Below, piece after piece: positions 22,520 to 42,771 of a stretch of 64,000 bases of DNA. Location: assembly GCF_004785685.1 (NCBI RefSeq), contig NZ_SRPF01000002.1, positions 930,001 to 994,000 of the forward strand, in the 5' to 3' direction. Under the pieces are notes generated by a model, which did no database searches, was not told the DNA's origin, and worked only from the letters and a program-made list of their open reading frames with translations. The position numbers and the translations under genes were made by a program. The stretch comes from Marinobacter confluentis (GTDB taxonomy: Bacteria; Pseudomonadota; Gammaproteobacteria; Pseudomonadales; Oleiphilaceae). Position 1 is the first letter of the stretch. Every line of letters begins with the position of its first letter.

Positions 22520-22592
22520 GGGCTGGCGCTCCACTGTTATTGTTATAGGACACTTGTAGTTTAACCCAAGTTCCGGTGCGACCGCTGGAATG

Positions 22593-24590: not shown

Positions 24591-25596
24591 TGCCCGTCAG
24601 CAGATACGCCTGACAGCGGCACCCGCCGAAGTCTTTGCCTTTCTCGTCGCAGGATCGACAGGGCTCCGGCATCCAGCTGTCACCCCTGTAATAATTAAAT
24701 CCGGCACTATCGTACCAGATGGAGCTCAGGCCGGACTCACGCACATTGGGAAAATCAATCGGTAACAGGCGGGCACTGTGACAGGGCAAGGCCGTGCCAT
24801 CCGGCGCTACGGTCAGAAACAGGCTGCCCCAGCCATTCATGCAGGCTTTGGGGCGTTCCTCGTAATAATCCGGGGTAACAAAAATCAGCTTCATCAGGGA
24901 ACCGGCGGCGGCCAGTCGTTCACGGCAGGCATTCACCTCGGCTTCCGCCTTCACCAGCTGCTCACGGGATGGCATCAGACCCTCCCGGTTCTTGAACGCC
25001 CAGCCATAGTATTGGCAGGTGGCGAGCTCAACATAGTCTGCATCCAGGCGGTCGCAGAGTTCGATGATGTCGTTCATCTGGTGAATGTTGTGCCGGTGGA
25101 TCACGAAATTGAGCACCATGGGATAGCCGGCGTCCTTCACCGCCCTGGCCATGGCCAGCTTCTGTTCAAAGGCCTTGCGCGAACCCGCCACGGCATTATT
25201 CAGCTCGGGATCGGACGCCTGAAAGCTGACCTGGATATGATCCAGACCCGCGTTCTGAAATGACTGCACTTTGGCCTCGGTCAGGCCCAGGCCGGAGGTG
25301 ATCAGGTTGCTGTAGTAGCCAAGATGCCGGGCCTCGGCAATCAGCTCTGCCAGGTCCTGCCGAACCAGCGGCTCGCCACCGGAAAATCCCAGTTGCGCCG
25401 CTCCCATTTCCCGGCCCTGGCGAAGCACCCTGACCCACTCATCCGTCGTCAGCTCCTGGCGGGTGTTGTCAAAATCCAGTGGGTTGGAACAGTAGGGGCA
25501 CTGCAAAGGACAGCGGTAGGTCAATTCCGCCAAAAGCCAGAACGGCGGACCGATCCGGCCCGAAGCCTTCGCTGTGGGGTTCGGGTTATCCGTCAT
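24442..25596 (-). CDS. pqqE: PQQ biosynthesis radical SAM protein PqqE
   Basis: Joins the conserved Glu and Tyr of PqqA, the first step in PQQ formation, using a radical SAM [4Fe-4S] cluster. The cluster-binding motif is CPLQCPYC near residue 30. The C-terminal SPASM region carries further Cys ligands ([22 protein letters not shown] and a later Cys). The 384-residue length is typical. The ATG overlaps the pqqD stop (ATGA), so translation is coupled. PqqD acts as its peptide chaperone. Confidence 0.97.
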
Positions 25597-25871
25597 CTGA
25601 TGTCAATCCAGCTTTGCTGCCGTGCATCCCTCAAAAAGTCCAGCACGTCTACCGTCAGTGGGCCTGCCTCCGGAAACCGCCGCTCCAGATTCTGGACAAT
25701 ATCAGCCACAGAGCGTTCGCCATCCACTTCACTGAGCACCGCGCCGGCACTTTCATTGAGACGGACCATGCCTTCCGGATAAAGCAGCACGTATGCGTTC
25801 TGGGCCGGCTCCCACTGAAACCGGAAGCCAACGCGAAGCCGTGGAATACCTTTTGTTTCCGCAGTCTCCAT
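25593..25871 (-). CDS. pqqD: PQQ biosynthesis peptide chaperone PqqD
   Basis: Binds the PqqA peptide and presents it to PqqE. The 92-residue protein starts at the ATG at 25871 ([10 protein letters not shown]), overlapping the pqqC stop in TGATG. It matches the family: [15 protein letters not shown], then [18 protein letters not shown] and [10 protein letters not shown]. The longer frame to 26123 only reflects open sequence inside pqqC and is not used. Confidence 0.95.
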
Positions 25872-26626
25872 CACAGCCCCCGATGCCATACCGGGTGATC
25901 GGCGACCGTATGATACGGTGGCGTCTGGTGGCGATAGGCCATAGTCAGGGCATCCAACATAGTCCATAAGATATCCAGTTTGAATTGAAGAATTTCTAAG
26001 GCGCGGGCCTGCTGGTCCGCCGTGGTAAAGTGGTCCAGCGTGATGTTCAAACCATGCTCTACATCCCTGCGGGCCTCGGACAACCGCTTGCGAAAATAGG
26101 AATAGCCCTCGGTTCTGATCCATGGGTAGTGGGCAGGCCAGCTATCCAGCCGGGACTGATGAATCTCTGGCGCAAACAGCTCCGTAAGGGAGGAGCAGGC
26201 GGCCTCCTGCCAGGTCGCTCGGCGGGCAAAATTCAGGTAGGCGTCTACCGCAAACCGCACGCCGGGTAACACGTGGCGCTGATCAATCACCTCTTCGCGG
26301 GTCAGGCCGACCGCTTCTGCCAGACCCAGCCAGGCTTCAATCCCTCCGTCATCACCATCGTGGCCGTCATGGTCCAGCACGCGCTGAAGCCAGAGACGCC
26401 GAACCTTTGCATCGGGACAGTTGGCCATGATGGCGGCGTCTTTGCGGGGAATGTTGATCTGGTAGTAATACCGGTTTGCCACCCACCCCCGGATTTCTTC
26501 CGGCGAGCACTCTCCGCCATACATAGCGCGGTGATAAGGATGGTGAATGTGATAGAACTCGCCTTTGGCCCGCAGCGACTTTTCAAAATCATCACGGTTC
26601 ATCGTGGTGTTTGCAGCTGCCTTCAT
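25871..26626 (-). CDS. pqqC: Pyrroloquinoline-quinone synthase PqqC
   Basis: Cofactor-free oxidase doing the last ring closure and eight-electron oxidation to PQQ. The 251-residue all-helical protein has the family blocks [44 protein letters not shown] and [14 protein letters not shown], which hold active-site His, Tyr and Arg residues. Length is typical. ATGA overlap with pqqB and TGATG overlap with pqqD indicate one polycistronic unit. Confidence 0.97.
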
Positions 26627-27552
26627 GACTGCCCCGCCAGATCCAGATGCATTCCGTCATAAGCCACTTCAATGCCATGGCTTTCCAGCACCGCGCGCTC
26701 TGGCGATGCCTCATTGAGAATGGGGTTGGTGTTGTTGATGTGAATCAGGATTTTACGCCGCGCGCTCAACCCATCCAGCACCTCGATCATGCCACCGGGA
26801 CCACTCTGGGCCAGGTGCCCCATCTCCTGGCCGGTGCGGGTGCCGACTTCGCAACGCAGCATTTCATCATCGTGCCACACAGTGCCATCCACCATCAGAG
26901 TGCCGGCCCTTCCCATCCATTCCAGTATGTTGTCATCAGGCTGGCCAAGACCCGGCGCGTAAAACAGCGTCTCGCCGCTGCCCGTGTCTTCAATAAACAG
27001 CCCGATATTATCCCCCGGATGGGTTTTATGACGACGCGGCGAATAAGGTGGTGCGTTGCTGATCAATGGAATGGCTGTCAGGCGGAGCGAAGGCGCACAG
27101 GGAATGCTAAAAAAGGTGTCCGGGCCGGCCTTGATCTCGTTCCATCTGGGCCCGCCGTTCCAATGCCTGAGCATGTTGAACAGCGGAAACCCTGTGCTCA
27201 GATCTTCGTGCACCTGAGCCGTACACCAGATGTCCAGCGGCATGCCCTCTCGCAGCATCAGAAGGCCGGTCGTGTGATCCAGCTGGCTGTCGAAAAGAAC
27301 AACGGCATTGATACCCGTATCGCGCAGTGTCCGGTTTGGCTGCATTGCACTGAAAGAGGCCAACTGGGCGCGGATATCCGGCGAAACGTTGCAGAGAATC
27401 CAGTGCTCCCCGTCTTCGCTGATGGCAATAGAGGACTGGGTCCTGGCCCGGGCCTTCAGGGAGCGTTTGCGGAAACCGTCGCAGTTGCGGCAGTTACAGT
27501 TCCACTGGGGAAATCCTCCGCCAGCTGCGGAGCCAAGAACGCGAATCTGCAT
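26623..27552 (-). CDS. pqqB: PQQ biosynthesis protein PqqB (metallo-beta-lactamase fold)
   Basis: A 309-residue MBL-fold protein, proposed to hydroxylate the Tyr-derived ring of the PQQ precursor. It has the typical start [19 protein letters not shown] with its Cys cluster, then [14 protein letters not shown] and the later metal-binding [10 protein letters not shown]. Shine-Dalgarno GGGAG precedes the ATG. It follows pqqA by 57 bp containing a strong hairpin, which would lower pqqB-E expression relative to pqqA. Confidence 0.96.
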
Positions 27553-28025: not shown

Positions 28026-29546
28026 TCAGAAGAAGCCCAGCGGGTTAATGTCATAGCTGACCAGCAGGTTCTTGGTCTGCTGGTAATGATCCAGCGCCAT
28101 CTTGTGGTTCTCGCGACCAACGCCGGACTTCTTGTAGCCACCGAAGGCGGCGTGCGCCGGGTACTGGTGATAGCAGTTGGTCCACACGCGGCCTGCCTGG
28201 ATACCACGGCCTACGCGGAAGGCGCGGTTGATGTCGCGGGTCCAGAGCCCGGCACCCAGGCCAAACTCGGTATCGTTGGCAATGGCCAGGGCTTCTTCCT
28301 CGTCCTTGAAGGTGGTAACACCCACCACCGGGCCGAAGATTTCTTCCTGGAACACGCGCATATTGTTCTGACCCTTGAACAGGGTGGGCTGAACGTAGAA
28401 GCCGTTGTTGTAATCGCCTTCCATTTCTTCGCGGCCACCGCCGGTCAGTACTTCAGCACCTTCCTGTTTGCCGATTTCCAGGTAGGACATGATCTTGTCG
28501 AACTGCTCCTTGCTGGCCTGGGCGCCCACCTGCACGTCGGTATCCAGCGGGTTGCCACGCTTGATCGACTTGGTGCGCGCGACCACTTTCGCCATGAACT
28601 CGTCGTACATGTCCTCCTGTACCAGTGCACGGGACGGACAGGTGCACACCTCACCCTGGTTAAAGAACGCCAGCACCAGACCTTCCACGCACTTGTCGAT
28701 GAATTCCGGCTCGGCTTTCATCACGTCGGAGAAGTAGATGTTGGGGGACTTGCCGCCCAGCTCCACAGTCGACGGAATGATGTTCTCAGCGGCGCACTTG
28801 AGAATGTGCGCACCCACCGGTGTAGAGCCGGTAAACGCAATTTTTGCGATACGCTTGCTGGTCGCCAGGGCCTGGCCGGCTTCGATGCCGTAACCGTTAA
28901 CAATATTGACAACGCCCGGTGGCAACAGGTCGCCAATCAGCTCCATCAGAACCAGAATACTGGCAGGAGTCTGCTCGGCAGGCTTCATCACCGTGCAGTT
29001 ACCAGCGGCCAGGCAGGGCGCCAGCTTCCAGGTGGCCATCAGAATCGGGAAGTTCCAGGGAATGATCTGACCGACAACCCCCAGCGGTTCGTGGTAATGA
29101 TAAGCCACGGTGTTGTTATCGATTGCGCTGGAGCTGTCTTCCTGGGCACGGATACAACCGGCGAAGTAACGGAAGTGATCCACCGCCAGCGGCAGGTCGG
29201 CATTAATGGTTTCGCGTACTGCCTTACCGTTGTCCCAGGTTTCAGCAACCGCCAGCATCTCAATGTTCTGCTCGATGCGATCAGCAATTTTCAGCAGGAT
29301 ATTGGAACGTTCGGTGGTTGAGGTGGCGCCCCATGCGGGAGCAGCTTTATGGGCAGCGTCCAGAGCCAGCTCGATATCTTCGGCCGTGGAGCGAGGAATT
29401 TCACAGAAAGCCTCCCCGGTGACCGGGGTGATGTTGTCAAAGTACTGGCCTTTGACCGGGGCAACCCATTCGCCACCGATGTAGTTACCGTAACGGGACT
29501 TGTAGGAGACGATTGAGCCTTCTTTACCTGGATTTGCGTAGATCAT
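28026..29546 (-). CDS. exaC: NAD-dependent aldehyde dehydrogenase, ExaC-like, copy 1
   Basis: Oxidises aldehydes from the quinoprotein alcohol dehydrogenase to acids. The 506-residue protein has the ALDH signatures: [34 protein letters not shown], the catalytic Glu in [11 protein letters not shown] and the catalytic Cys in [13 protein letters not shown]. It sits between pqqA and a NosR-like gene, as exaC does in Pseudomonas. A CCTTGGTAGTA motif lies 128 bp upstream of its start, shared with the cytochrome c promoter region. A near-identical copy is at 48776-50296, from which it differs at about 28 residues. Confidence 0.95.
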
Positions 29547-29853: not shown

Positions 29854-31962
29854 ATGGCGGGGCGCATCAAGCTCCTTCTTGTCTGCCTGTTTGTGCTGTC
29901 CCCGGTGAAGGCCGAACTATCCGACAGCAAGCAGGCATTGATCCAGGAGCTCTTCCCTTCTGCAACGGTGATCGAAGACGCCTTGCCGGATTTCCCTGTT
30001 TACCCGGTCTATCAGCTTCAGGAACTGCTCGGCTACGCTTATGAGTCTATGGACCATAGCCGGTTGCAGGGTTTTGCCGGCAAACCCATCAGCATGCTGA
30101 TCGGGCTTGACACCAGAGGCCGGTTTACCGGCGTCAGAGTGCTAAACCACCATGAACCGGTCTTTCTGCACGGGCTTGGGGAAGAACCCCTGTTTGATTT
30201 TGTGGAGCAGTACGAAGGCCGTTCACTGAGGGAGCAGATCATTGTCAACACCTCCAACTCCGACCGCTCGGGGCGTACCAGCCAGGGCAACGTGGTGCAC
30301 TTTGACGGGGTCAGCAAGGCAACAGTGTCTGTTCTGATCATCAATGACACCGTGCTCTCGTCAGCCTTGAAGGTGGCACGCAAAAAGCTCAACGGCTTTG
30401 CCCAGAGCGCTCCGACCCGGGCAAAGCCGGATTTTTACGAGCCGCTATCATGGCAGCAGTTAATTGACCGTGGTTATATTATCCGGTCACAGGTGACCGC
30501 AGAAGCCATTGAGGCCAGGCTGGGCCGGCCGCTCCGGGATTACCCGATAGCCATTGAACCCGCCGAAGGCGAGCTGTTCGCCGAGCTGTTTCTGGGCTAC
30601 ATCAACGCCCCGATGGTCGGCAGGAACCTGCTGGGAGACGAAGGCTACCGAAAGCTCATGCAGACCATCGGCGAACAGGCCCAGGTGCTTGCAGTCATGT
30701 CGCGTGGCGCCTATCCCCACGTGTCTGAAACCTTTGTACCCGGCAGCACACCGAACCGTATTGGGCTGACCCAGAACAATCTCTCGGTGGAAATGCGGGA
30801 TCTCAACCTGCTGGAATCCACCACGGAGTTCCGGGCGGCAGGCGCTCCCTCCTTTGATGCCCGCCATCTGTTCCGGGTTGGCGGCAACGCAGGCTTCAAT
30901 CCTGGCGCTTCCGCCGAATTCAAACTCAACGTAGAGCTTGCCCTGAATCACCTGGTGGTGGATCGCGCCGACCTCAGTATGCCAGTCAGGTTCGACGACT
31001 CCCTGTTTGAAGCCGTCGAAATCGCACCCGATCCTTCCGATTCAAGACAGCCAGTCTGGATCGGTCTGTGGAAAGAACGCTGGTGGCAGATTTCCCTGCT
31101 GGTTCTGGGGCTGACGGTTCTCACGGTATTTTTCGCCCGACAACGATCGCTGAGCCGCCACCCGGAGCTGGTTCACCGTTTTCGTTGGGGATTTCTGTTT
31201 TTCACGCTTTTCTTCATCGGTTTCTATGCTCAGGGCCAGCTGTCGGTGGTCAACATCTACACCCTGTTCCTGGCGATCTGGGATGGTTTTTCCCTGAATG
31301 TTTTCCTGCTTGACCCGGTGATCTTTATTCTCTGGATCTACACTTTCTTAACCCTTTTTGTCTGGGGCCGCGGCCTTTTCTGCGGATGGCTGTGTCCTTT
31401 CGGTGCGCTTCAGGAAATGGCGGCCTGGCTTGGCGAAAAGCTCAAGTTCCCCCAGGTCAAAATCCCGGAGCAATGGCACCGGCGTCTGATTCTGCTCAAG
31501 TACCCGATCCTTCTGGGACTGGTAGGCACGGCTTTCTACTCACTCACGCTGGCCGAACAACTGGCGGAAGTGGAACCGTTCAAAACCAGCATTACGCTGC
31601 TATTCGTACGCCACTGGCCTTTCGTTGCCTATGCCGTTGGCCTGCTGGTCATTGGTATGTTTATACACAAGTTTTATTGTCGCTACCTTTGTCCACTGGG
31701 CGCGGGCCTGGCAGTGCTTGGCAGGCTTCGTCTGTTCAGTTGGCTTGACCGTGTTGATCTTTGCGGCACGCCCTGTCAGCACTGTAAAAATGCCTGCGGC
31801 ATCAATGCCATCCGCAAGGACGGGCGGATTGATTACGACGAGTGCATCCAGTGCCTGGAGTGCGTCGTGATACTCAACGACAAAGAGCAGTGTGTGGACA
31901 AGCGCCTCGAGAACAAGAAGCAGTTGAAAGCCTCCAGAATTCTGGCCACAGACGCCGGTTGA
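29854..31962 (+). CDS. NosR/NirI-like membrane flavo-iron-sulfur protein
   Basis: A 702-residue polytopic protein. A signal peptide (to about residue 20) is followed by a periplasmic FMN-binding domain with DGVSKATVSV, where Thr157 is the likely flavinylated residue. Several helices follow (about 410-640). Two CxxxCP motifs, GLFCGWLCPFG and FYCRYLCPLG, lie before a cytoplasmic ferredoxin-like end with CGTPCQHCKNACG and CIQCLEC. In denitrifiers NosR/NirI pass electrons across the membrane. Here no nos or nir genes are present and the gene lies among alcohol-oxidation genes, so a role in electron flow from or to that system is inferred. SD is AGGAG. Confidence 0.87.
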   Translation: MAGRIKLLLVCLFVLSPVKAELSDSKQALIQELFPSATVIEDALPDFPVYPVYQLQELLGYAYESMDHSRLQGFAGKPISMLIGLDTRGRFTGVRVLNHHEPVFLHGLGEEPLFDFVEQYEGRSLREQIIVNTSNSDRSGRTSQGNVVHFDGVSKATVSVLIINDTVLSSALKVARKKLNGFAQSAPTRAKPDFYEPLSWQQLIDRGYIIRSQVTAEAIEARLGRPLRDYPIAIEPAEGELFAELFLGYINAPMVGRNLLGDEGYRKLMQTIGEQAQVLAVMSRGAYPHVSETFVPGSTPNRIGLTQNNLSVEMRDLNLLESTTEFRAAGAPSFDARHLFRVGGNAGFNPGASAEFKLNVELALNHLVVDRADLSMPVRFDDSLFEAVEIAPDPSDSRQPVWIGLWKERWWQISLLVLGLTVLTVFFARQRSLSRHPELVHRFRWGFLFFTLFFIGFYAQGQLSVVNIYTLFLAIWDGFSLNVFLLDPVIFILWIYTFLTLFVWGRGLFCGWLCPFGALQEMAAWLGEKLKFPQVKIPEQWHRRLILLKYPILLGLVGTAFYSLTLAEQLAEVEPFKTSITLLFVRHWPFVAYAVGLLVIGMFIHKFYCRYLCPLGAGLAVLGRLRLFSWLDRVDLCGTPCQHCKNACGINAIRKDGRIDYDECIQCLECVVILNDKEQCVDKRLENKKQLKASRILATDAG

Positions 31963-32913: not shown

Positions 32914-34689
32914 TTATTTACTGGCTACACGGTCACTCGGCAGCTTGAAGGTCCAGACCATACCACCCTGGTTGAAGTCCTTGACTACCTTCGCGACTTC
33001 GCCACCCCACAGCGGCACAGCACCACCCCAGCCGGAGGCAACCGACACATATTGCTCGCCGTCCATGGTCCAGGTCACCGGTGTACCGACCACGCCAGAA
33101 CCGGTATTGAACTTGTAAAGTTCTTCACCTGTTTTGGCGTCAAAGGCTTTCAGAAAACCCTCGGGCGTGCCGGTAAAGACCAGATCGCCAGCCGTCGTCA
33201 TCACGCCACCCCACAAGGGTGCAGGGTTTTCATAGCGCCAGACTTCTTTGCCGGTTTTCGGGTCCATCGCACGCAGCACACCGATGTAGTCATCATTGGC
33301 TGGCTTGATGGTGAAGCCTGCGCCCAGGAAGGCAGCACCCTTCTTGTAAGACACCGGCTCGTTCCAGATGTCCATCGACCACTCGTTGGACGGCACGTAG
33401 AACAGGCCAGTCTGTTGGCTGTAAGCCATCGGCATCCAGTTCTTGCCACCCAGGAAGGACGGGAACGCCACAACGGTCTCGCCTTTGCCTTCGCTCATCT
33501 CAGCAGGGTCACCCGGGCGACCGTTTTCTGCATAGATCGGGCGACCAGTCTTCGGATCCAGGCCCTCGGCCCAGGTGATCTTGTCCACGAACGGGAAGCC
33601 GCGGATGAAATCGCCGTTCTCACGGTTCAACACGTAGAAGAAGCCGTTACGGTCAGCCGTTGCCGCCGCCATGACCTTCTTGCCGTTTTCCATGTAATCA
33701 AAGGAAATCAGCTCGTTGACGCCATCGTAGTCCCAGCCGTCGTGCGGCGTGGTCTGGAAGTGCCACTTGATGCTGCCGTCGTCCGGGTCAATCGCGACAC
33801 GAGAAGACGAAAACAGGTTGTCGCCAGGGCGCAGGTGCGAGTTCCACGGAGCCGGGTTGCCGGTACCGAAGAAGAGCGAGTCAGTGTCTGCATCGTAGGT
33901 GCCGCCCAGCCAGGTCGCTGCGCCGCCGTTCTTCCACATATCGCCGGGCCAGGTCTTTCCAGCCTCGCCGCCTGAAATACCATTCTCGACCTTCTTGCCG
34001 TCTTTGTAGACGTAGCCCATATGGCCCTCAACCGTCGGACGGGTCCAGATGATTTCGCCGGTGTTGGCGTCGTAGGCCTCAACCTTGCCCACGATACCGA
34101 ATTCACCGCCAGACACACCGGTGATGACTTTTCCCTTTACCACAATCGGTGCGGCGGTAATGGCATAACCGGCCTGATAGTCGGCTACGGTCTTGATCCA
34201 CATTGGCTTGCCGGTGTCCTTGTTAAGAGCGACCAGCTTGGCGTCCAGCGTACCGAAGATCACCTTGTCGTCATAAAGGGCAACGCCCCGGTTTACCACG
34301 TCGCAGCAGGGCATGATGCCGTCAGGCAGGCGAGCATCGTACTGCCACAGCTCTTGACCGGTGCGGGCATCGATCGCGTAGACCCGTGAGTAGGAGGCCG
34401 TCACGTACATGACGCCATCCTTGATCATCGGCTGGGACTCCTGACCGCGCATTTTCTCGCTGCCGAAGGAAAACGCCCAGGCTGGCTGCAGGAAGCGGAT
34501 GTTGTCCCTGTTCAGATCTTCAATGGTGCTGTACCGCTGCCCCTGGGTGCCCATGCCATAACTGACGATGTCCTCAGGCGTATTCTGGTCGTTCATGATG
34601 TCTTGGTCGGTCACCGCATGGGCCCCGAGAGACACCCCCAGCGCCAGGGCGCTGGTAGCAATGCGAATCCCGAACTTGTTGGTTCTCAT
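32914..34689 (-). CDS. PQQ-dependent (quinoprotein) alcohol dehydrogenase, predicted lanthanide type
   Basis: A periplasmic eight-bladed propeller dehydrogenase of 591 residues. The ATG at 34689 follows GGAGAG; a signal peptide ends near GAHA|VTDQ. The vicinal disulfide is Cys128-Cys129 (MPCCDVV). The catalytic Asp320 lies in [11 protein letters not shown], and Asp322 two residues later gives the Asp-Tyr-Asp pattern of XoxF, ExaF and PedH. Calcium enzymes have Ala (MxaF) or Ser/Thr there. Other conserved parts are GEFGIVG and [15 protein letters not shown]. It follows the XoxJ/MoxJ-like and cytochrome c genes on the same strand, the usual trio. Lanthanide use is inferred from the extra Asp. 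PQQ is supplied by the nearby pqq genes. Confidence 0.92.
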
Positions 34690-34812: not shown

Positions 34813-35790
34813 TCACTTGGTATTACTACCTTGACCCTGCGAACCCTCAGCCCGGGCAATAGACTCTTCATCCAGGAATTCCCGGTAGTACTGGGGCACG
34901 CTGTAACTGAGGCCGTTCCGGGAAAACAGCTCATTCATCTGCCCGGATGTCACGATCTCGCCAATGATGGCCTCCACCGCGTAGCCCAGCTGTCGATGGG
35001 TGTGTTTGATCGCCATCCCCACATCCCAGGCCTGTTTGCCAATACCCGGGAAGCCGTTAGCCGCTTTCACGAACCTTTCATTTTCAACCTGTGCCAGTTC
35101 GTGGTCGATTTCCGCGCGCATTCCCATGACCGCGCTAACATCGCCGGCTCGCATGCCACTGAAAGCTTCTCTCAGGTTCGGGTAGTGCCGAACCTGATCA
35201 CGCATGCGCCCCTGAAGCCCGGAGCTCATGTAGAAATCCGGCAGGGTGTCAATTTCCACGCCAACAGGGTTGTACTGAAACACCGCAATTGTCTGCACCG
35301 AATCCAGCTGCTGCGGGTCATAGGCGATCTGCCAGGTTTCCTGTTGATAGGGGCCGAACATCACTACCTGCTCATTGATGTATTCGCCGGTGGAGTCCTG
35401 CATGTAGGCGTATTCTTTATCGTAAGGCACACGCAGCATCAGATCGGCCAGCCGCTGCTTGGCCAGGTAATGGCCTTTCCAGACGTTATTCCGCAGATCG
35501 TCGCCCAGGGTCTCGTCCGGGGTTATCCAGTGCACCTTGAACTCAACCCCCATCTCTTCGGCAATACGGCGTCCGATGTCCACATCTATGCCTGCCGGCT
35601 CGCCATTCCGCTCATAGGAGTAAGGAGGGAAATCCCTGTAAACACCCACTTTGATATAACCGGACTCGAGGATAATGTCGTAGGTCCGATCCGCCGGACG
35701 GTTCAATAATGGTTCGCCGTCATTCATCTCCTGGGCGCCCGCCCAGGGCCAACACATCAATAGCAGCAGACTCAGAAAAAGAGGTTTCAT
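34813..35790 (-). CDS. MoxJ/XoxJ-like periplasmic binding protein (family 3)
   Basis: A 325-residue protein with a signal peptide ending WAGA|QEM, then an SBP family 3 fold: VGVYRDFPPYSYERNG, IDVDIGRRIAEEMGV, DLMLRVPYDKEYAY and GMAIKHTHRQLGYAVEAI. In methanol and ethanol oxidation loci a protein of this type (MoxJ/XoxJ) sits between the dehydrogenase and its cytochrome and is thought to help dehydrogenase maturation rather than bind amino acids. The same order is seen here. Its final codons contain the TTGGTATTACTACC element, which is upstream of the dehydrogenase. Confidence 0.88.
   Translation of the reverse strand: MKPLFLSLLLLMCWPWAGAQEMNDGEPLLNRPADRTYDIILESGYIKVGVYRDFPPYSYERNGEPAGIDVDIGRRIAEEMGVEFKVHWITPDETLGDDLRNNVWKGHYLAKQRLADLMLRVPYDKEYAYMQDSTGEYINEQVVMFGPYQQETWQIAYDPQQLDSVQTIAVFQYNPVGVEIDTLPDFYMSSGLQGRMRDQVRHYPNLREAFSGMRAGDVSAVMGMRAEIDHELAQVENERFVKAANGFPGIGKQAWDVGMAIKHTHRQLGYAVEAIIGEIVTSGQMNELFSRNGLSYSVPQYYREFLDEESIARAEGSQGQGSNTK
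34817..34830. promoter_or_regulatory. Candidate regulator site TTGGTATTACTACC upstream of the dehydrogenase
   Basis: Related to CCTTGGTAGTA at 29.67 and 36.43 kb, with the same orientation and a matching distance (128-141 bp) from the start codon. It forms GGTA-TTAC-TACC, a small inverted repeat. It overlaps the last codons of the binding-protein gene, implying an internal promoter for the dehydrogenase. Confidence 0.5.
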
Positions 35791-35866: not shown

Positions 35867-36295
35867 TTATTCAGGCTTGGGAACCGACTCCACATAGGTC
35901 TTGATGGCCCAGATGGCATTCTGGTCCAGGTTCTCCCTGAATGACGGCATTCCCCGGCCGGTGCCATTGAGAACGCGATTGACGAAGTATTCGTCATCCC
36001 ATTCGGTCAGTTCCCGCAGATCAGGCGTCAAACCGCCGGACATGGCACGGATGCCGTGGCAAACAGCACAGTTTCCGGCATAACCGCTTTCACCGACCTT
36101 GACCGCCTGGGCGTTGAATTCTCCGAACTCATTATCTTCGCGGAACGGGTTAGAGGTGCGAACCTCCGTACCCAGTTCAGGCAGATTTCCGGTGTCCACT
36201 TCCTGCGGTGTCACGTTGCCGTGGGCGAATACCAGACCGGCAATACCGATCAGTCCGGAAGCAACAAACAGCTTCAATGAAACGTGCTGGGGCAT
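35867..36295 (-). CDS. Periplasmic cytochrome c, electron acceptor of the alcohol dehydrogenase (ExaB/PedF-like)
   Basis: A 142-residue class I cytochrome c. A signal peptide ends near VFA|HGN. Heme attaches at CAVCH (Cys76, Cys79, His80), and Met116 in GRGMPSF is the probable axial ligand. In Pseudomonas the corresponding cytochrome c550 (ExaB) takes electrons from the quinoprotein ethanol dehydrogenase. The ATG at 36295 has AGAGG upstream; the extension to 36355 has no support. First gene of the cytochrome-binding protein-dehydrogenase run. Confidence 0.92.
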   Translation of the reverse strand: MPQHVSLKLFVASGLIGIAGLVFAHGNVTPQEVDTGNLPELGTEVRTSNPFREDNEFGEFNAQAVKVGESGYAGNCAVCHGIRAMSGGLTPDLRELTEWDDEYFVNRVLNGTGRGMPSFRENLDQNAIWAIKTYVESVPKPE

Positions 36296-36429
36296 GATAA
36301 CGACCTCTTTGACTACCTGATAAAATGTGGCGGGCAGGGATCGATGTCCGTCCATCTGCCGTCAATGTCCACAAGTCTAAGGAGAGCCCCAACCGATCCG
36401 AATGCCACTTTCGAGGCCTTGGCCTAGTT

Positions 36430-36440
36430 CCTTGGTAGTA
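36430..36440. promoter_or_regulatory. Candidate regulator site CCTTGGTAGTA in the divergent cytochrome c / ABC region
   Basis: It matches the 29674-29684 element exactly. It is 135 bp upstream of the cytochrome c start on one side and 134 bp upstream of the ABC binding-protein start on the other, so one site may serve both divergent operons. A nearby CCTAAGTACTG (about 36471) resembles the AAAGTAC-type elements. Confidence 0.5.
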
Positions 36441-36573
36441 CTCAACAACGATAACCGCTGAAATCTCCTCCCTAAGTACTGCCTGATTGCAACTTTCAGA
36501 ATATTTCCGGCACCTCCCCGCTTCTCTATGCTCGGATGAGTGACAACAGAAACTTCTGACTAAAGGGGCATGC

Positions 36574-37749
36574 ATGGTTATCCGCGGTCTGAAAGCGCTG
36601 GCTCTGATGCTTGTGTCCGGTGCTATGTTTGCGCCAGCGCAGGCGCAAACCGTCGATGTCAGGATGGCCTACATACAGTGGGTGCCTGATCCGGGGCCGA
36701 TACTGTCAAACGTGATCCCCGAGCCAGAGGATGCAGGGCTGAGAGGCGCCGAGCTGGCCCTGGCAGACAATCAGACCACCGGGAAATTTCTCGGTCAGAA
36801 CTACCAGTTGGCAACCGCCCTGGCTGATTCGGCGGAATCGGCGACCCAACGCTTTGCCGAGATGCAAAGCCAGGGCGTCCGCCTGTTTGTGACCAATCTA
36901 CCAGCAGCCACACTGCTGGCGCTTACGCGACTGGCAGAACCGGACACCCTGATTTTCAACGCCGGCGCAAAAGACGATTCGCTGCGCACCGAGCACTGCA
37001 GCGCCAACCTCCTGCACACCATTCCCAGCTACGCCATGCTCACCGATGCTCTGGGCCAATGGCTGAAACAGAGGCAATGGGAGGAGGTTTTTCTGATTAC
37101 CGGCCCCACTGACGCCGACAAGCACTGGGCCAGCGCCTTCCGCCGGGCCAGCAAGCGCTTTGGCCTGGAGATTGTTCAGGACAGACTCTGGACCTTTGAT
37201 GCCGACCTGCGCCGCACCGCCTCGAAAGAGCTTCCGCTATTCACACAAGGGGCTGACTACGATGCCGTGGTGGTAGCGGACGTGCGGGGCGACTTTGGCG
37301 AGTATGTGCCCTTCAACACCTGGCTGCCCCGCCCTGTCGTGGGCACCCAGGGCATGTCACCGGTCGCCTGGCATCGGGTGGTGGAAAGCTGGGGCGCCGC
37401 TCAGTTGCAGAACCGCTTCCGGGAGCTGGCGAGTCGGGAAATGAACAGCGAGGACTATGCTGCGTGGGCGGCTACCCGGTCTATTGGCACCGCCGTGACC
37501 GCACTGGGCAAAGTCGACCCCAAAGCCATCCGCGACTTCCTGTTCAGCGATGGCTTTCAGCTCGCCGCTTTCAAGGGTCGCAAGCTGACCTATCGCGACT
37601 GGAACGGCCAGTTGCGTCAGCCAATACCGCTGGTGCATCCCCGCGGTCTGGTGGCGCGCGCCCCGTTTGAAAGTTTTCTGCACCCGGACACCACACTTGA
37701 CACCCTGGGGTTCGACCGGCCGGAGAGCGCCTGTCGAATCAACGGCTGA
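36574..37749 (+). CDS. ABC transporter substrate-binding protein of the PQQ-alcohol dehydrogenase-associated (Ped/Lut) system
   Basis: A 391-residue periplasmic protein. A signal peptide ends PAQAQ at about residue 25. Its fold resembles branched-chain amino acid binding proteins: GAELALADNQTTGKFLG, then LFVTNLPAATLLAL and DYDAVVVADVRGDFGEYVPF. Proteins of this group are found next to PQQ-dependent dehydrogenases; the P. putida PedA1A2BC and Methylorubrum lutA-F systems use them for rare-earth element acquisition. That function is inferred here by gene context. First gene of a four-gene run with a beta-propeller protein, an ATPase and a permease. Confidence 0.86.
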   Translation: MVIRGLKALALMLVSGAMFAPAQAQTVDVRMAYIQWVPDPGPILSNVIPEPEDAGLRGAELALADNQTTGKFLGQNYQLATALADSAESATQRFAEMQSQGVRLFVTNLPAATLLALTRLAEPDTLIFNAGAKDDSLRTEHCSANLLHTIPSYAMLTDALGQWLKQRQWEEVFLITGPTDADKHWASAFRRASKRFGLEIVQDRLWTFDADLRRTASKELPLFTQGADYDAVVVADVRGDFGEYVPFNTWLPRPVVGTQGMSPVAWHRVVESWGAAQLQNRFRELASREMNSEDYAAWAATRSIGTAVTALGKVDPKAIRDFLFSDGFQLAAFKGRKLTYRDWNGQLRQPIPLVHPRGLVARAPFESFLHPDTTLDTLGFDRPESACRING

Positions 37750-37790: not shown

Positions 37791-38765
37791 ATGAAGCCTT
37801 TCCTCAAAACCACATTAATGGCCAGCCTGATCGGCCTCTCCGCGCCGGCTTTTGCTGGTCTGGCCTATGTGTCGAACGAAAAAGACAACACCCTGTCAGT
37901 GATCGATACCGAGACCCATGAGGTGGTCGAAACCATTGAGGTGGGCAAGCGCCCCAGGGGCATCCTGCTCTCCAAGGATTACACCAGGCTTTATATCTGT
38001 GCCAGCGACGACGACACCGTGCAGGTGCTGGACCTGGCTACCCGTAAAATCGTGGACACCTTACCTTCCGGCGAGGACCCGGAGCAGTTCGCCCTGCATC
38101 CGAACAACAAACACCTGTATATCGCCAATGAAGACGACGCCATCGTCACCGTTGTCGATGTGACCAACAAGGATGTACTGGCCCAGATTGATGTGGGCAT
38201 CGAGCCCGAAGGCATGGCCGTCAGCCCCAATGGCAAGTGGGCTGTGAACACCAGTGAAACCACCAGCATGCTGCACTGGATCAACACCGAGACCTTCAAA
38301 ATCGAAAAGAATATCGTCGTCGGCCAGCGCCCGCGCCACGTCGAGTTCACCAATGACAGCAGAATCGCCTGGGCCTCGGCCGAAATCGGCGGCACCGTGC
38401 ACATCATTGACGTGGACAGTCTGGAACAGATCCACGAAATGTCCTTCAAAGTGCCGGGGGTGAACCAGGATCGCGTGCAGCCAGTGGGTATCGAGCTCAC
38501 CTCTGATGGTAAGTACGCTTTTGTGGCTCTGGGGCCTTCCAACCACGTCGCCGTTGTCGATGCCAGAACCTACGAGGTGCTGGATTACCTGCTGGTCGGC
38601 GCCCGGGTGTGGCAGTTGGACCTGGATAAAGACGAGAAATACCTCTACACCACCAACGGCGTCTCCGGAGACGTGTCGGTCATCGATGTTGAGGACCTGA
38701 AGGTGATCAAATCCATCAAGGTCGGCCGCTATCCCTGGGGCGTGGTCATCGACCCGTCGTCCTGA
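37791..38765 (+). CDS. YVTN-repeat beta-propeller protein, PQQ-catabolism associated
   Basis: A 324-residue protein with a signal peptide ending PAFA|GLAY, then seven-blade-type YVTN repeats: YVSNEKDNTLSVIDTET, YICASDDDTVQVLDL, YIANEDDAIVTVVDV and YTTNGVSGDVSVIDVEDL. Homologues with this architecture lie beside PQQ-dehydrogenase ABC systems, and one in Methylorubrum (LutD) binds lanthanides. No separate catalytic site is visible, so a periplasmic binding role is likely. It is 41 bp after the binding protein and 7 bp before the ATPase, in one operon. Confidence 0.88.
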   Translation: MKPFLKTTLMASLIGLSAPAFAGLAYVSNEKDNTLSVIDTETHEVVETIEVGKRPRGILLSKDYTRLYICASDDDTVQVLDLATRKIVDTLPSGEDPEQFALHPNNKHLYIANEDDAIVTVVDVTNKDVLAQIDVGIEPEGMAVSPNGKWAVNTSETTSMLHWINTETFKIEKNIVVGQRPRHVEFTNDSRIAWASAEIGGTVHIIDVDSLEQIHEMSFKVPGVNQDRVQPVGIELTSDGKYAFVALGPSNHVAVVDARTYEVLDYLLVGARVWQLDLDKDEKYLYTTNGVSGDVSVIDVEDLKVIKSIKVGRYPWGVVIDPSS

Positions 38766-38772
38766 TCCCGAT

Positions 38773-39495
38773 ATGACCATCGATGCCAGCAATCTCAGCT
38801 TTCAGTACGGCGATAAAACGGTACTCCGGGACGTCAGTTTCTCACTGACACCGGGCCGGTTCCACGCCCTGCTCGGCCCCAACGGCGCGGGCAAGTCCAC
38901 GCTGTTCGGGTTGCTGACCCGTCTGCTGGCGTTGCAGGCCGGTGACATTCTGCTGGGCGGGCAATCGCTGAACAAACAGCCTGCCGACGCCATGCGCAGA
39001 ATCGGGGTGGTTTTCCAGCAGAACGCGCTGGATCTGGACCTGACGGTACGCCAGAACCTGCAATACCACGCTGCACTGCACGGTCTGTCCAGGCACGAGG
39101 CCCGCCAGCGCGGCGACCGGGAACTGGAGCGGTTCAGCTTGCTGGACCGTGCCGATGAGCCGGTTCGACAACTCAATGGCGGCCACCGTCGGCGAGTGGA
39201 AATTGCCCGCGCCCTTCTGCACCAGCCCTCGCTGCTGCTTTTGGACGAGCCCACAGTGGGCCTGGACGTGGCCAGCCGCAGGGCTTTGAACGAGCATGTG
39301 CGAATGCTGTGCCAGCAGGATGGCCTGACAGTGCTCTGGGCCACCCATCTGATTGAAGAGGTGCGGGAGGACGATCGGGTACTGATTCTGCATCAGGGCC
39401 AGCTTCTGGCTGACGGGGCGGGCCACGCAATCTGCAGGACCGAAGGCACGCGGAACCTGGCAGAGACCTTCCATTCCCTGACCGGAGCGGGCTGA
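38773..39495 (+). CDS. ABC transporter ATP-binding protein, PQQ-alcohol dehydrogenase system
   Basis: A 240-residue ATPase with Walker A GPNGAGKST, a Q-loop (GVVFQQNALDLDL), Walker B LLLLDEPTVGLD and the H-loop WATHLIEEV. The LSGGQ signature appears as LNGGHRRRVEIARALL, where Asn and His replace the usual Ser and Gln. It belongs to the DrrA/NodI-type branch that pairs with ABC-2 permeases. It is 7 bp after the beta-propeller gene; the permease starts right after its stop. Direction of transport cannot be read from sequence. Confidence 0.9.
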   Translation: MTIDASNLSFQYGDKTVLRDVSFSLTPGRFHALLGPNGAGKSTLFGLLTRLLALQAGDILLGGQSLNKQPADAMRRIGVVFQQNALDLDLTVRQNLQYHAALHGLSRHEARQRGDRELERFSLLDRADEPVRQLNGGHRRRVEIARALLHQPSLLLLDEPTVGLDVASRRALNEHVRMLCQQDGLTVLWATHLIEEVREDDRVLILHQGQLLADGAGHAICRTEGTRNLAETFHSLTGAG

Positions 39496-39496
39496 G

Positions 39497-40294
39497 ATGA
39501 ATGCAACCCAATACTGGCACTGCTTTATCGGCATACAGACCCGGGAATGGCTGCGGTTCTGGCAGCAACGTACCCGTTTTGCCAGCGCGCTGGTGCGTCC
39601 ACTCTTGTGGCTGGTGGTGTTTGCCGCCGGTTTCCGGGCGGTGCTGGGGATTTCCATCATTCCGCCTTACGAAACCTACATCACCTATGAGACCTACATC
39701 GCGCCGGGGCTGTGCGGGATGATCATTCTGTTCAACAGTATGCAGGGTGCCTTGTCCATGGTGTATGACCGGGAACTGGGCAGCATGCGGGTGCTACTGA
39801 TGAGCCCTTTACCGCGGCCCTTTCTGTTGGTGACCAAACTGCTGGCGATGGGTGTGGTGTCCATCGGGCAGGTGTATGTTTTCCTGCTGCTTGCGCTACT
39901 GGTGGATGTAGAGCCGCCAGCCTGGGGTTATCTGGCGGTGTTACCGGCACTGATTCTGACCAGCCTGATGCTGGGTGCCCTCGGGCTTCTGATTGCGACC
40001 TGGATCAAGCAACTGGAGAATTTTGCGGGCGTTATGAATTTTGTGATTTTCCCAATGTTCTTCATGTCGTCGGCGCTTTACCCGCTATGGCGGATGAACG
40101 AGGCCAGTCCCTGGCTTTACTGGGTATGTCAGTTCAATCCGTTTACGCATGCGGTAGAAGCCATACGTTTCTCTCTTTATCTGGAATGGAATCCAATGGC
40201 GTTCGGGATTACCGCCGGGGTGACGGTGGTGCTCGCCCTGCTGGCAACAACCGGGTTTCGTCCCCAGCGCACCAGGATTCTGGGGACAGCCTAG
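39497..40294 (+). CDS. pedC: ABC-2 type permease, PedC-like
   Basis: A 265-residue inner-membrane protein with six predicted helices and the ABC-2 signature region (PRPFLLVTKLLAMGVVSIGQVYVFLLLA). Family members in the PQQ-dehydrogenase setting are named PedC. Start codon follows the ATPase stop by one base, so the subunits are coupled. ABC-2 permeases are usually exporters, but in this family uptake of lanthanide or a lanthanide complex has been proposed; transport direction is unresolved. Confidence 0.85.
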   Translation: MNATQYWHCFIGIQTREWLRFWQQRTRFASALVRPLLWLVVFAAGFRAVLGISIIPPYETYITYETYIAPGLCGMIILFNSMQGALSMVYDRELGSMRVLLMSPLPRPFLLVTKLLAMGVVSIGQVYVFLLLALLVDVEPPAWGYLAVLPALILTSLMLGALGLLIATWIKQLENFAGVMNFVIFPMFFMSSALYPLWRMNEASPWLYWVCQFNPFTHAVEAIRFSLYLEWNPMAFGITAGVTVVLALLATTGFRPQRTRILGTA

Positions 40295-40314: not shown

Positions 40315-40986
40315 TCAGATCACGGCAGCTTCGGGCTCCCTCAGCTTTGCAAGAAGTCCATCGACGACAAATGAATCACCAATGGCATCATCCCATTTCA
40401 GCGTGGCCGGCTTGCCATCGAGGTACCAGAGGCGGTTCGCCAGGGTCGACGCATCCTGGCTATCGTGGGTGACGCAGATCATGGCCATGTCAGGGTAGTT
40501 GTCCATCAGACCCGAAATCAGCATTTTGAGATCCTTCGCCATGACGGGATCCAGAGAGGCGAAGGGTTCGTCCAGTAACAGCAGGTCCGGCTTTACCGCA
40601 AGACATCGCGCCAGAGCTGCCCGTCTGGCCATGCCAAGCGAGAGTTGGTCGGGGAGGTAGGCTTCATATCCAGTCAGCCCGACTTCACTCAGGAGCCTTG
40701 TGGCGTCCTGTTCAGTCGCACCGACGAGTTTGAGATTGGCCAGCAGCGAACGCCAGGGCAGCAATCGATGCTCCTGGAACAGGTACCCCACCCGCACCTG
40801 ATCACGACCAGTCACGGCATCAGCGGGTATGGAAGTATCCAGCCCGGCAATGGCATTTAACAGGGTGGTTTTGCCAACGCCCGAGGGGCCCAGAAGGCAG
40901 ATTCGATCGCCCCGCTCGACACTGGTGAACACTTCTCCAAGCACGGGCTGGCCGAAACTGCGGCCTTTGATACTGAGCTCAAGCAT
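40315..40986 (-). CDS. ABC transporter ATP-binding protein (Ssu/Tau/nitrate type)
   Basis: A 223-residue importer ATPase with Walker A GPSGVGKTT, Q-loop GYLFQEHRLLPW and Walker B DLLLLDEPFASLD. The signature motif is LSLGMARRAALARCLA, lacking the usual Gly-Gly. It belongs to the NitT/TauT group. Last gene of a three-gene minus-strand operon; it overlaps the permease gene by 8 bp. The substrate is not determinable. Confidence 0.9.
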   Translation of the reverse strand: MLELSIKGRSFGQPVLGEVFTSVERGDRICLLGPSGVGKTTLLNAIAGLDTSIPADAVTGRDQVRVGYLFQEHRLLPWRSLLANLKLVGATEQDATRLLSEVGLTGYEAYLPDQLSLGMARRAALARCLAVKPDLLLLDEPFASLDPVMAKDLKMLISGLMDNYPDMAMICVTHDSQDASTLANRLWYLDGKPATLKWDDAIGDSFVVDGLLAKLREPEAAVI

Positions 40987-41758
40987 GGGCAGGCTCCGGC
41001 TGGCGCCAGCGGCTGGACCGGCGTTCCAGGGGCTGGAGAACGCCCAGCTCGATCAACTGAACCATGGCAATGAATGCCAGACTGTAGGCCAGAATCGCTG
41101 CAACATCGAAGACCTGAAACGCCATGTGCAGTTGAAAACCAACGCCGTTTGAGCGGCCGAGCAGTTCCACCACCAGCACGATTTTCCAGATCAGCGCCAG
41201 GCCGCCGCGGGTAGCCGCCATTAGGTAGGGAAAAAGCTGCGGTAGCCAGACATCCCGATAGCGCTGCCAGGCGGTGAAGCAATATACGGTTGCCATCTGT
41301 TCCAGACGGTAGTCCAGGCTACGGGCGCCTTCCCGAACGGTGACCGCCACGTTGGGTACCTTGTTGATGACGACCGCCATGACGGCGGCCACTTCGACCA
41401 GACCAAACCATACGTACATCAGGATGATGGTCACCAGCGCCGGCAGATTCAAAAGCAGGAGCAGCAACGGATCGAACAACGCATTGATGAGTGCGGAACG
41501 GCCCATGGCCAGACCGATGACAGCGCCCAGCAACATGGCCAGTGTGAAAGCCACCACTACCCGACCGAGCGTGGCGCCGAGGTGATGCCAGAGTTGACCC
41601 GAATTCGCCTCCTCCAAAAACCGGTTCAGAACAGACTGCGGCGAGGGCAGCAAGGCCGTTTCGAGAAGCTGGGCCACCATAGCCCACAACAGAACGAACG
41701 ACGGCAGGACGATCCAGTAGCTCCAGACCGGAGGGCGCGCGCCTGCCGGCATGTTCAC
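40979..41758 (-). CDS. ABC transporter permease (SsuC/TauC-like)
   Basis: A 259-residue permease with six helices and the BPD signature EAA loop near ARSLDYRLEQMATVYCF. A cluster of hydrophobic segments (VLPSFVLLWAMVAQLL, FTLAMLLGAVIGLAMG, LLLLLLNLPALVTIILMYVW) supports a membrane protein of the NitT/TauT group. Overlaps the ATPase gene downstream and the binding-protein gene upstream by 4 bp, so all three are translationally coupled. Confidence 0.88.
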   Translation of the reverse strand: MNMPAGARPPVWSYWIVLPSFVLLWAMVAQLLETALLPSPQSVLNRFLEEANSGQLWHHLGATLGRVVVAFTLAMLLGAVIGLAMGRSALINALFDPLLLLLLNLPALVTIILMYVWFGLVEVAAVMAVVINKVPNVAVTVREGARSLDYRLEQMATVYCFTAWQRYRDVWLPQLFPYLMAATRGGLALIWKIVLVVELLGRSNGVGFQLHMAFQVFDVAAILAYSLAFIAMVQLIELGVLQPLERRSSRWRQPEPAHA

Positions 41759-42771
41759 GGCTGGCTGCCTTGGCCGGGTCCGCGATAGAACAGGCGGTCA
41801 GGCATCAGTGTGTTGGCGTCTGCACCAGTCAATATCAGTAGCTGCTTCAGGTCAGCCAGCCGTTGGTCGGTCATGAGCGGTGGCGTACCTGCAATAAATC
41901 CCCGCCGTAACTCGTCAAATACCGGCTCAGCGGGATCGTTCATCAATTCGCGCAGCGGCTGCCAGTTGTCCGGATTTTCAGCCAGCGCCTGTTTGGTCTG
42001 TTTCAATGACAGTGCAAAGCGGTCGATCAGCGCCCGATGATCCGCCGCCCAGTCCGCCGGAAAAACATACCCCAGCACGGGCAACTGAGGGCCGAGATCC
42101 AGGGCCGCCAGCAGGTCCTCCATGGCGAAAGCGGAACGCCAGCCGCCCTCGCCTTTCAGCCGGGCGGCAAAATGCCAGTAGGTGACGATCACGTCCACCT
42201 GGCCCCGCTTCAGAGCCTGACTCAACAGGGGCGGGGCGCCGAACTGGACGTCGGTTTGCACGCCCAGGTCCAAACCCTGCTGTTCAGCAACTCGCCGGAG
42301 TAACACCCAGCCCTTGCTGTCGGGCCCTCCGGCGACGCCGACGCGGCGGCCAGCCAGATCAGCGACAGTCCCGATATCCGAGTCATCAGCCACGACAATA
42401 TCGCCGATCTGCGCCGAGAAAGGCACATACAGGTAGGGCGCACCAGCCGCGAACCGGGACTGGGCCCAGAGCAGATCGGCCACCGCGCCGTTCACGCTGC
42501 CGCTGGTGACAGCCAGCCGGGACGCCGGTAGATTTGCCACCAATCGCAGGTCAAGCCGGTAACCGTTGGCCCGGTCCAGGCCATGAGACACCAGATGCGC
42601 CAGTTCCCAGTGGGCGGTTCCGAACTGCAGAACGCTAAGGCTAAGCGCGGGTATCTCCGGCTTTGCCTGCCCGTTCTCGGCCGCTGGCAGATTCAACGGG
42701 AGCAGGCCCAGTACGAAGACCAGACAACGGGTGATTAATGAGAGGGAAGCAGGTCTGAGGAAGCGTTTCAT
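41755..42771 (-). CDS. ABC transporter substrate-binding protein (SsuA/TauA/NitT-like)
   Basis: A 338-residue periplasmic binding protein. A signal peptide precedes LPAAENG (cleavage near residue 30). The SsuA-like core has LSVLQFGTAHWELAHLVSHGLD, VNGAVADLLWAQSRF and DLAGRRVGVAGGPDSKG. It starts the operon with the permease and ATPase. A GTACTTTAGTGC element 38-49 bp upstream is identical to one upstream of nosP. Position among PQQ genes suggests a molecule related to alcohol or metal metabolism, but no substrate can be assigned. Confidence 0.85.
   Translation of the reverse strand: MKRFLRPASLSLITRCLVFVLGLLPLNLPAAENGQAKPEIPALSLSVLQFGTAHWELAHLVSHGLDRANGYRLDLRLVANLPASRLAVTSGSVNGAVADLLWAQSRFAAGAPYLYVPFSAQIGDIVVADDSDIGTVADLAGRRVGVAGGPDSKGWVLLRRVAEQQGLDLGVQTDVQFGAPPLLSQALKRGQVDVIVTYWHFAARLKGEGGWRSAFAMEDLLAALDLGPQLPVLGYVFPADWAADHRALIDRFALSLKQTKQALAENPDNWQPLRELMNDPAEPVFDELRRGFIAGTPPLMTDQRLADLKQLLILTGADANTLMPDRLFYRGPGQGSQP

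Follow-up and report, generated by a model that had tools for sequence, protein, structure and literature searches.

One PQQ alcohol dehydrogenase, of the PedH type and very probably lanthanide-dependent, was found in Marinobacter confluentis

A quinoprotein alcohol dehydrogenase with an Asp-Tyr-Asp motif is encoded at positions 32914–34689 (minus strand) of a 64,000-nucleotide stretch of Marinobacter confluentis DNA, the whole of which is called the window here. Which metal does this enzyme use, and does the organism have a calcium-dependent enzyme besides it? An earlier sequence-only reading had claimed that a lanthanide-type enzyme is the main alcohol dehydrogenase of this organism.

Family and metal site of the enzyme

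The reading frame is intact, encoding 591 amino acids with no inner stops, and starts with an N-terminal signal-like sequence (judged by eye). The protein scored 799.6 bits against TIGR03075 (methanol/ethanol PQQ dehydrogenase, NCBIfam; cut-off 480). Among solved structures it ranked closest to 6zcv (1000 bits), which we take to be PedH, and 6zcw (999 bits), followed by ExaA (1flg, 687 bits); XoxF (6dam) scored 384 bits. Entry 6ZCW is given as PedH in PMC11996626. Identity within the genus was 83–92% to genes of the PedH type and 54–60% to those of the PedE type.

Translation confirmed the Asp320-Tyr321-Asp322 motif (codons 33732–33724, minus strand), which lies within WDYDG at residues 319–323. 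In a HMMER alignment with PedH, XoxF and ExaA, the second Asp fell on the metal-site Asp of 6zcv and 6zcw (WDFDG) and of XoxF (WDYDG), and on Ser in ExaA (WDFSG), in agreement with the claim that the extra Asp separates lanthanide from calcium types. Published comparisons likewise give Ser in PedE where PedH carries Asp (PMC5487730), and Ala at this position in MxaF (PMC11996626). The adjacent cysteines C128-C129 (PCCD, residues 127–130) are present and aligned in 6zcw and 1flg. E196 (in GGEFG) and N278 (in GTGNP) also line up with the aligned structures, and we take these positions to be the remaining metal ligands.

A chance or misaligned Asp322 was ruled out by these structure alignments and by the genus. 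Among 124 Marinobacter genomes (this one included), the residue was Asp in 82 of 82 genomes with a PedH-type gene (D-Y-D) and Ser in 46 of 46 with a PedE-type gene (D-F/Y-S), seven fragment reading frames without the motif region being set aside. With Asp322 rather than Ser, Thr or Ala two residues past the catalytic Asp, the enzyme departs from ExaA/PedE, whereas the D-x-D motif, the adjacent cysteines and a stronger resemblance to PedH, compared with ExaA/PedE and XoxF, agree with PedH/ExaF. Judged by sequence, it is a close relative of PedH and belongs neither to ExaA/PedE nor to XoxF. The Asp signature by itself is ordinary, and the enzyme is a further member of the known PedH group.

A ped-type gene cluster

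The neighboring genes on the same strand encode a PedG/XoxJ-like periplasmic protein of substrate-binding protein family 3 (34813–35790; PF00497) and the cytochrome c-550 PedF (35867–36355; TIGR04494 above cut-off; N-terminus uncertain). The former had no NCBIfam match at 1e-20 and is named by synteny, from its position and its co-occurrence with pedH. Facing them on the plus strand are the genes of the PedA1A2BC lanthanide transporter, all above the cut-offs of their families: the substrate-binding protein PedA1 (36574–37749; TIGR03863), the beta-propeller protein PedA2 (37791–38765; TIGR03866), the ATPase PedB (38773–39495; TIGR03864) and the ABC-2 type permease PedC (39497–40294; TIGR03861, PF01061). 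Growth that relies on PedH is reported to require this transporter when La is low (PMC6839425). A PQQ alcohol dehydrogenase gene thus stands together with pedF, pedG and pedA1A2BC as in a ped cluster, pedG being assigned by Pfam and synteny only. The operon had been described as exa-like; among the genes tested by family models, the ExaC label fits the aldehyde dehydrogenase only (28026–29546, minus; NF050026 above cut-off), and we replaced the exa label by ped on these results.

Genes for PQQ synthesis follow exaC on the minus strand, each above its family cut-off: pqqB (26623–27552; TIGR02108), pqqC (25871–26626; TIGR02111), pqqD (25593–26123, true start further in; TIGR03859) and pqqE (24442–25596; TIGR02109). 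Beyond pedC lie genes for a second ABC importer (discussed below), an ErdR-like LuxR-type response regulator (42941–43714, plus; NF041830 at 189.6 bits, below the cut-off of 390) and a PAS hybrid sensor kinase (43758–46031, minus; Pfam).

The region between the divergent pedFGH and pedA1A2BC transcripts (36356–36573) contained neither pedE, pedD, pedR2 nor pedS2, which occupy this site in relatives with both enzyme types (pedD and pedR2 were sought at the loci only). A search of the whole genome also returned no PedS2-like kinase at E ≤ 1e-25, with 14 of 27 candidates scored. The divergent region holds TAGTTCCTTGGTAGTA at 36425–36440, upstream of pedF, a candidate regulator site kept in 14 aligned genomes (seven with PedH only and seven with both enzymes). 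A search of the window for this promoter motif gave one exact site and one with three mismatches, and 13 of 100 shuffles gave as many.

Several other genes of the window are of interest in their own right. A second exaC copy (48776–50296, minus) encodes a protein 94% identical to the first (BLAST), so that the copies flank pedH, and adjoins a gene for a wax ester synthase family protein (50399–51811, minus; TIGR02946 at 298.8 bits, cut-off 309.95). Between exaC and pedH is a gene for a NosR-like FMN-binding/ferredoxin membrane protein (29854–31962, plus; 633.6 bits, cut-off 1000), a relative of which lies close to the cluster at some of the genus loci. A 665-amino-acid frame adjoining pqqE (22593–24590, minus; no NCBIfam match at 1e-15) is putatively S9-type peptidase-like, by eye. 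Just past pqqE, 19588–22624 (minus) encodes a hybrid kinase of the NahK/ErcS type and an ErcA-like iron alcohol dehydrogenase regulatory protein, both related to ethanol-response regulators; the window contains one ErcA-like gene of the iron alcohol dehydrogenase family.

A single PQQ alcohol dehydrogenase in the genome

The genome assembly comprises 3.77 Mb in 103 contigs and is 99.99% complete. When used as a query against it, the enzyme matched itself and, weakly (27% identity over 128 residues), a 402-amino-acid frame that is putatively BamB, going by its length. A PQQ_2 family search found the same two places and one more (C58:517k), a 406-amino-acid frame whose single NCBIfam match, to a beta-propeller lipoprotein family, was far below cut-off. 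A hidden second PQQ alcohol dehydrogenase was therefore rejected on both searches of this assembly and on the poor lipoprotein match. The observation that the window holds one PQQ dehydrogenase accordingly extends to the whole genome, the weak match aside.

A calcium enzyme might have been missed in an unassembled gap, given the 103 contigs, in which case the strain would be an ordinary organism with both PedE and PedH. We regard this as extremely improbable: pedF directly adjoins pedA1 on one 1.07 Mb contig, where relatives with both enzymes hold pedE; completeness is 99.99%; and 46 of the 82 Marinobacter genomes with PedH have no PedE-type match, 39 of these being at least 99% complete (hand count). 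The enzyme is very probably a lanthanide-dependent quinoprotein of the PedH type, with no other PQQ alcohol dehydrogenase found beside it in this Marinobacter.

Two modules across Marinobacter

A PedH-type gene (partial in a few cases) was present in 82 of the 124 genus genomes and a PedE-type gene in 46 (partial or broken in G038, G091 and G117). This corresponds to 36 genomes with both (dual), 46 with PedH only, 10 with PedE only and 32 with neither. Some PedH-only genomes (e.g., G006, G063 and G112) also carry a further alcohol dehydrogenase, 41–43% identical and in a larger frame, which the genome studied here lacks.

We compared the cluster loci of 81 PedH and 10 PedE-only genomes. Dual genomes share the order pedH-pedG-pedF, then divergently pedE, pedD, pedR2 and pedS2, and then pedA1A2BC; within the inserted block, pedD encodes pentapeptide repeats, pedR2 a LuxR-type regulator and pedS2 a HAMP kinase, all three being named by homology and place. 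At 43 of the 46 PedH-only loci, the window included, pedF faces pedA1 over 253–325 bases (431 in one) with none of the block genes, pedD included. Of the remaining three, the loci of G103 and G125 break off at contig ends, and G100 has pedS2 in this place. Searched over whole genomes, a PedS2-like kinase (at least 57% identity; up to 14 candidates scored per genome) was found in all 36 dual genomes, in 2 of 46 PedH-only genomes (G100 and G125) and in 0 of 10 PedE-only genomes, the loci of the last having pedD and pedR2 and no kinase close to this PedS2. The pedS2 of G125 lies near a contig end, and perhaps an assembly gap lies behind the PedH-only label of this genome. In G100 (locus L139), pedS2 stands beside pedA1 while pedE, pedD and pedR2 are missing from the locus, as in a half-lost block.

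Of the 82 PedH genomes, 81 have pedA1 and 81 have pedG, and neither gene was found in the 10 PedE-only genomes (for pedA1, Fisher p 1.5e-12, kinship ignored). The two enzymes thus have different companions: pedE is joined by pedD, pedR2 and, in dual genomes, the pedS2 of the metal switch, and pedH by genes for lanthanide supply and maturation; this two-module reading follows from pedS2 in dual genomes and from pedA1 and pedG in PedH genomes.

Individual genes were broken in a few assemblies. pedE is in two pieces in G038 (L069) and G091 (L101), both of which have an undivided pedH; since pqqB is split too in G091, an assembly error is possible there. pedH is in pieces in G075 and G086, probably through assembly errors because other genes are split there as well. 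A contig end truncates pedH in G103, and in G096 an in-frame stop interrupts it shortly after the start.

Proposed loss and exchange of the calcium enzyme and its switch

The history of the PedE block was examined on a FastTree phylogeny of six ped proteins from 78 of the 82 PedH genomes (four were dropped by the length/gene filter). The tree required 21 state changes, of which branches with good support forced at least 17. Shuffling the labels raised the number to 26, with values as low as the observed one in 24 and 10 of 500 shuffles; the label is therefore weakly clustered. Single-gene DNA trees of pedH, pedG, pedF, pedA1 and pedA2 gave 20–22 changes and the exaC tree 9 (45 genomes; shuffled 15), while the pedC tree contained no dual genomes. 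The 130 bases upstream of pedF required 20 changes, compared with only 5 for the 120 bases upstream of pedA1, indicating that the junction sorts by state and its neighbors do not.

All 36 dual genomes have the dual-type sequence before pedA1, as do 11 of the 43 PedH-only junctions; another 21, among them that of the window (three mismatches), share a different sequence class, and 11 fall in neither. G112 retains parts of both dual flanks, which amounts to a deletion scar. Moreover, the block genes have diverged in step with the pedH locus (Mantel r 0.78 for pedE, 0.66 for pedS2 and 0.58 for pedD; each 0/999 permutations). In our reading, which is tentative as to direction, the dual locus is old, the block was lost repeatedly and a shared PedH-only allele was exchanged. 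The reverse history, in which PedH alone is ancestral and the pedE-switch block was repeatedly gained, is a possible but less favored account: the 21 junctions of one class, found in 0 of 36 dual genomes, speak for it, and the ped tree cannot separate gain from loss, yet the 11 dual-like junctions, the scar in G112, the parallel divergence of pedE, pedS2 and pedD with the pedH locus, and the pedE genes in two pieces in G038 and G091 all argue for loss. If loss and exchange is right, the calcium enzyme and metal switch behave as a unit that lineages dropped or regained many times, and the genus offers a natural comparative system for the purpose of the rare earth element (REE) switch.

PedH-type enzymes beyond the genus

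Among 377 Gammaproteobacteria (completeness of at least 95 requested), 18 had a PedH-type gene, M. confluentis included, and 6 a PedE-type gene (match at E 1e-170). No PedE-type match was found in 13 of the 17 others with PedH among the best three candidates scored per genome. The motif pattern extended outside the genus, with D-x-D read in 14 of 17 PedH-type loci and D-x-S in 4 of 6 PedE-type loci. We also scanned 398 genomes of the Pseudomonadaceae, the family of Pseudomonas benzenivorans, scoring the best 3 to 5 candidates per genome in such large-scale scans; here the types were told apart by E-value (1e-286 or better for PedH, 1e-202 to 1e-211 for PedE) and not by residues. A PedH-type gene was found in 161 genomes, 43 of them with a single match, and 41 genomes had the PedE type only. 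PedH alone is thus common in both samples. In the ocean, lanthanide-motif PQQ dehydrogenases are reported to dominate (61% of 6,328 proteins, PMC11996626).

Among the matches listed in a search of the open-access literature, we found no description of a lanthanide-only ped cluster or of a tie between PqqT and PedH. PedH itself is already published. The cluster without calcium enzyme and switch, and with a PqqT-type importer, is a ped-cluster variant that is new as such. The leads worth following are the link to PqqT and the calcium-plus-switch module with its repeated losses or exchanges.

A PqqT-type importer

The second importer, encoded on the minus strand at 40315–42771 between pedC and the regulator gene, comprises an ATPase (40315–40986; PF00005), a permease (40979–41758; BPD_transp_1, PF00528) and a substrate-binding protein (41755–42771). 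At first these proteins matched only general ABC families or, with scores under the cut-offs, families of the NMT1/sulfonate/taurine type. A 23-sequence profile searched against the PDB (hmmsearch) then matched 9b1u (6.5e-75) and 9ooz (6.6e-74). The AlphaFold model of the binding protein (pLDDT 87.9) matched "PqqT with PQQ bound" (E 2.6e-29) and "PqqT with PQQ and Gd3+ bound" (4.5e-29) in Foldseek, and VIA aligned it with 9b1u at Z 35.1 over 287 residues (rmsd 2.4), the next entry being SsuA at Z 25.2. The label "sulfonate (Ssu) transporter" was replaced after these profile and structure matches. Lys142 of PqqT aligns with Lys153 of the window protein (numbering offset 27), a column in which 18 of the 23 aligned sequences have Lys and the five from Pseudomonas have Leu; Tyr198 does not vary. 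By fold and sequence the protein belongs to the PqqT family, and it is predicted to bind PQQ. PqqT of Methylorubrum extorquens is reported to bind PQQ with a Kd of 50 nM (PMC12124388); PqqT-PQQ is reported to bind La and Ca, with K142D shifting the preference towards La (PMC12828617).

In Marinobacter, a PqqT-type protein occurred in 70 of 82 PedH genomes (missing from 12), in 0 of 10 PedE-only genomes and in one further genome (G104). In G104 (91% complete), a single contig (C46) encodes both PedA1 and the PqqT-type protein, with no PQQ alcohol dehydrogenase match in the genome at 1e-60. In the Pseudomonadaceae sample, the protein occurred in 39 of 161 PedH, 0 of 41 PedE-only and 2 of 196 other genomes (G566 and G778). 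Two Halomonas loci have it within the ped cluster. In two Marinobacter (L230 and L231) it lies apart from pedC, and seven Pseudomonas loci have no ped gene within flanks of ~10 kb; the genomes concerned still carry a PedH-type gene (76–78% in all seven Pseudomonas). Neighbors of unlinked PqqT operons at four loci (L214, L219, L230 and L238) gave no hint of function. Of 15 PqqT genomes checked for PQQ alcohol dehydrogenases, 12 had the PedH type, two Methylococcales, with a PqqT relative at 32–33% identity, had only a 41% relative, and one Oleiphilaceae MAG (G525) had none.

PQQ salvage alone would not explain this bias, since both enzyme types need PQQ. Shared ancestry may underlie it: the importer genomes are suspected to cluster within the Pseudomonadaceae, and Fisher values overstate the association because genus and family counts are phylogenetically non-independent. 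Import of lanthanide-loaded PQQ would account for the presence of PqqT in PedH genomes and its absence from PedE-only genomes in both samples, even where it is unlinked to ped genes, as in Pseudomonas. Permeases of the ABC-2 type, to which that of PedA1A2BC belongs, are usually exporters. We raise, as a speculative and rather doubtful suggestion, that the importer serves the lanthanide system itself and takes up lanthanide-loaded PQQ, or PQQ as a lanthanide carrier, beyond PQQ salvage. If true, lanthanide-only bacteria would have a second metal and cofactor route besides PedA1A2BC. The pairing of importer and lanthanide enzyme would also make lanthanide/PQQ uptake by non-methylotrophs testable by gene removal.

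Metal dependence and proposed physiology

PedH of Pseudomonas putida is reported to show zero activity under 1 mM Ca2+ conditions optimised for PedE, to be active with La, Ce, Pr, Nd and Sm and very low with Gd and Tb, and to have a lanthanide Kd of 25–75 nM (PMC5487730). Because the M. confluentis enzyme is of the PedH kind, we infer from these metal data, strongly, that it too depends on lanthanides. Homology and context thus support the earlier claim as to a lanthanide type and a sole PQQ alcohol dehydrogenase; that it is the main alcohol dehydrogenase is a further step, which we would put as a presumption.

In the proposed scheme, the exported enzyme would bind a light lanthanide together with PQQ; Asp320 would act as catalytic base, and Asp322 would supply the additional ligand. 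It would oxidise short-chain alcohols to aldehydes, passing electrons to the cytochrome PedF. ExaC would complete aldehyde oxidation. PedG is the presumed insertion partner, PedA1A2BC would take up lanthanides, and the PqqT-type ABC importer would recapture PQQ. Since neither a calcium enzyme nor a PedS2/PedR2 switch was found, alcohol oxidation by the PQQ route is expected to require lanthanides permanently.

By itself, a D-x-D motif perhaps does not preclude calcium. XoxF1 carries D-x-D. As evidence counter to the motif, an XoxF1-MxaI complex has been reported with Ca only (PMC6028718), and a PedE-type enzyme is reported to have retained 60–80% activity at 10 mM lanthanides (PMC10409515). 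The sole PQQ alcohol dehydrogenase could accordingly have drifted to accept calcium too, leaving the strain not lanthanide-obligate despite its Asp. Besides the Ca-only complex, such facultative use would suit seawater with Ca at ~10^-2 M and lanthanides at ~10^-11 M (PMC11996626) and the missing switch, which could be lost if the metal ceased to matter. Nonetheless, near-universal retention of the lanthanide transporter gene pedA1 and of pedG in PedH genomes, a D-x-D motif invariant in PedH-only and dual genomes alike, and the inactivity of P. putida PedH under Ca2+ conditions make it quite unlikely. If lanthanide dependence is right, many Marinobacter would be natural counterparts of the laboratory delta-pedE strain, and their PQQ-linked alcohol oxidation would depend on roughly ten-picomolar seawater lanthanide.

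Comparison with known systems

The nearest known system is that of PedH in P. putida KT2440 (6zcw; 6zcv). The window enzyme is a full-length close homologue that shares the D-x-D motif and adjacent cysteines and likewise stands beside pedF, a pedG-like gene and pedA1A2BC. KT2440 differs in that it is also reported to have PedE and PedS2/PedR2 (PMC5487730, PMC6115532), neither of which was found here, whereas the window cluster adds the PqqT-type importer. ExaF of M. extorquens AM1, a lanthanide ethanol dehydrogenase grouped with PedH in type 2b (PMC11996626), is similar by description. The calcium ethanol dehydrogenases ExaA/PedE (1flg) share the family and overall alignment with the window enzyme but are set apart by Ser at the Asp322 position, by the lower score of ExaA (687 against 1000 bits) and by 54–60% identity for Marinobacter PedE-type proteins. 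XoxF (6dam) has D-Y-D and the E and N ligand positions in common with the enzyme, but scores 384 bits and belongs to the methanol dehydrogenase clade, outside which the enzyme falls. Finally, PqqT of M. extorquens (9b1u, 9b1v) is 34–35% identical to the window binding protein, for which PQQ binding is predicted, and the five Pseudomonas sequences of the alignment have Leu in place of Lys153; nonetheless, the two proteins share fold and sequence family, with Lys142 corresponding to Lys153 in the alignment.
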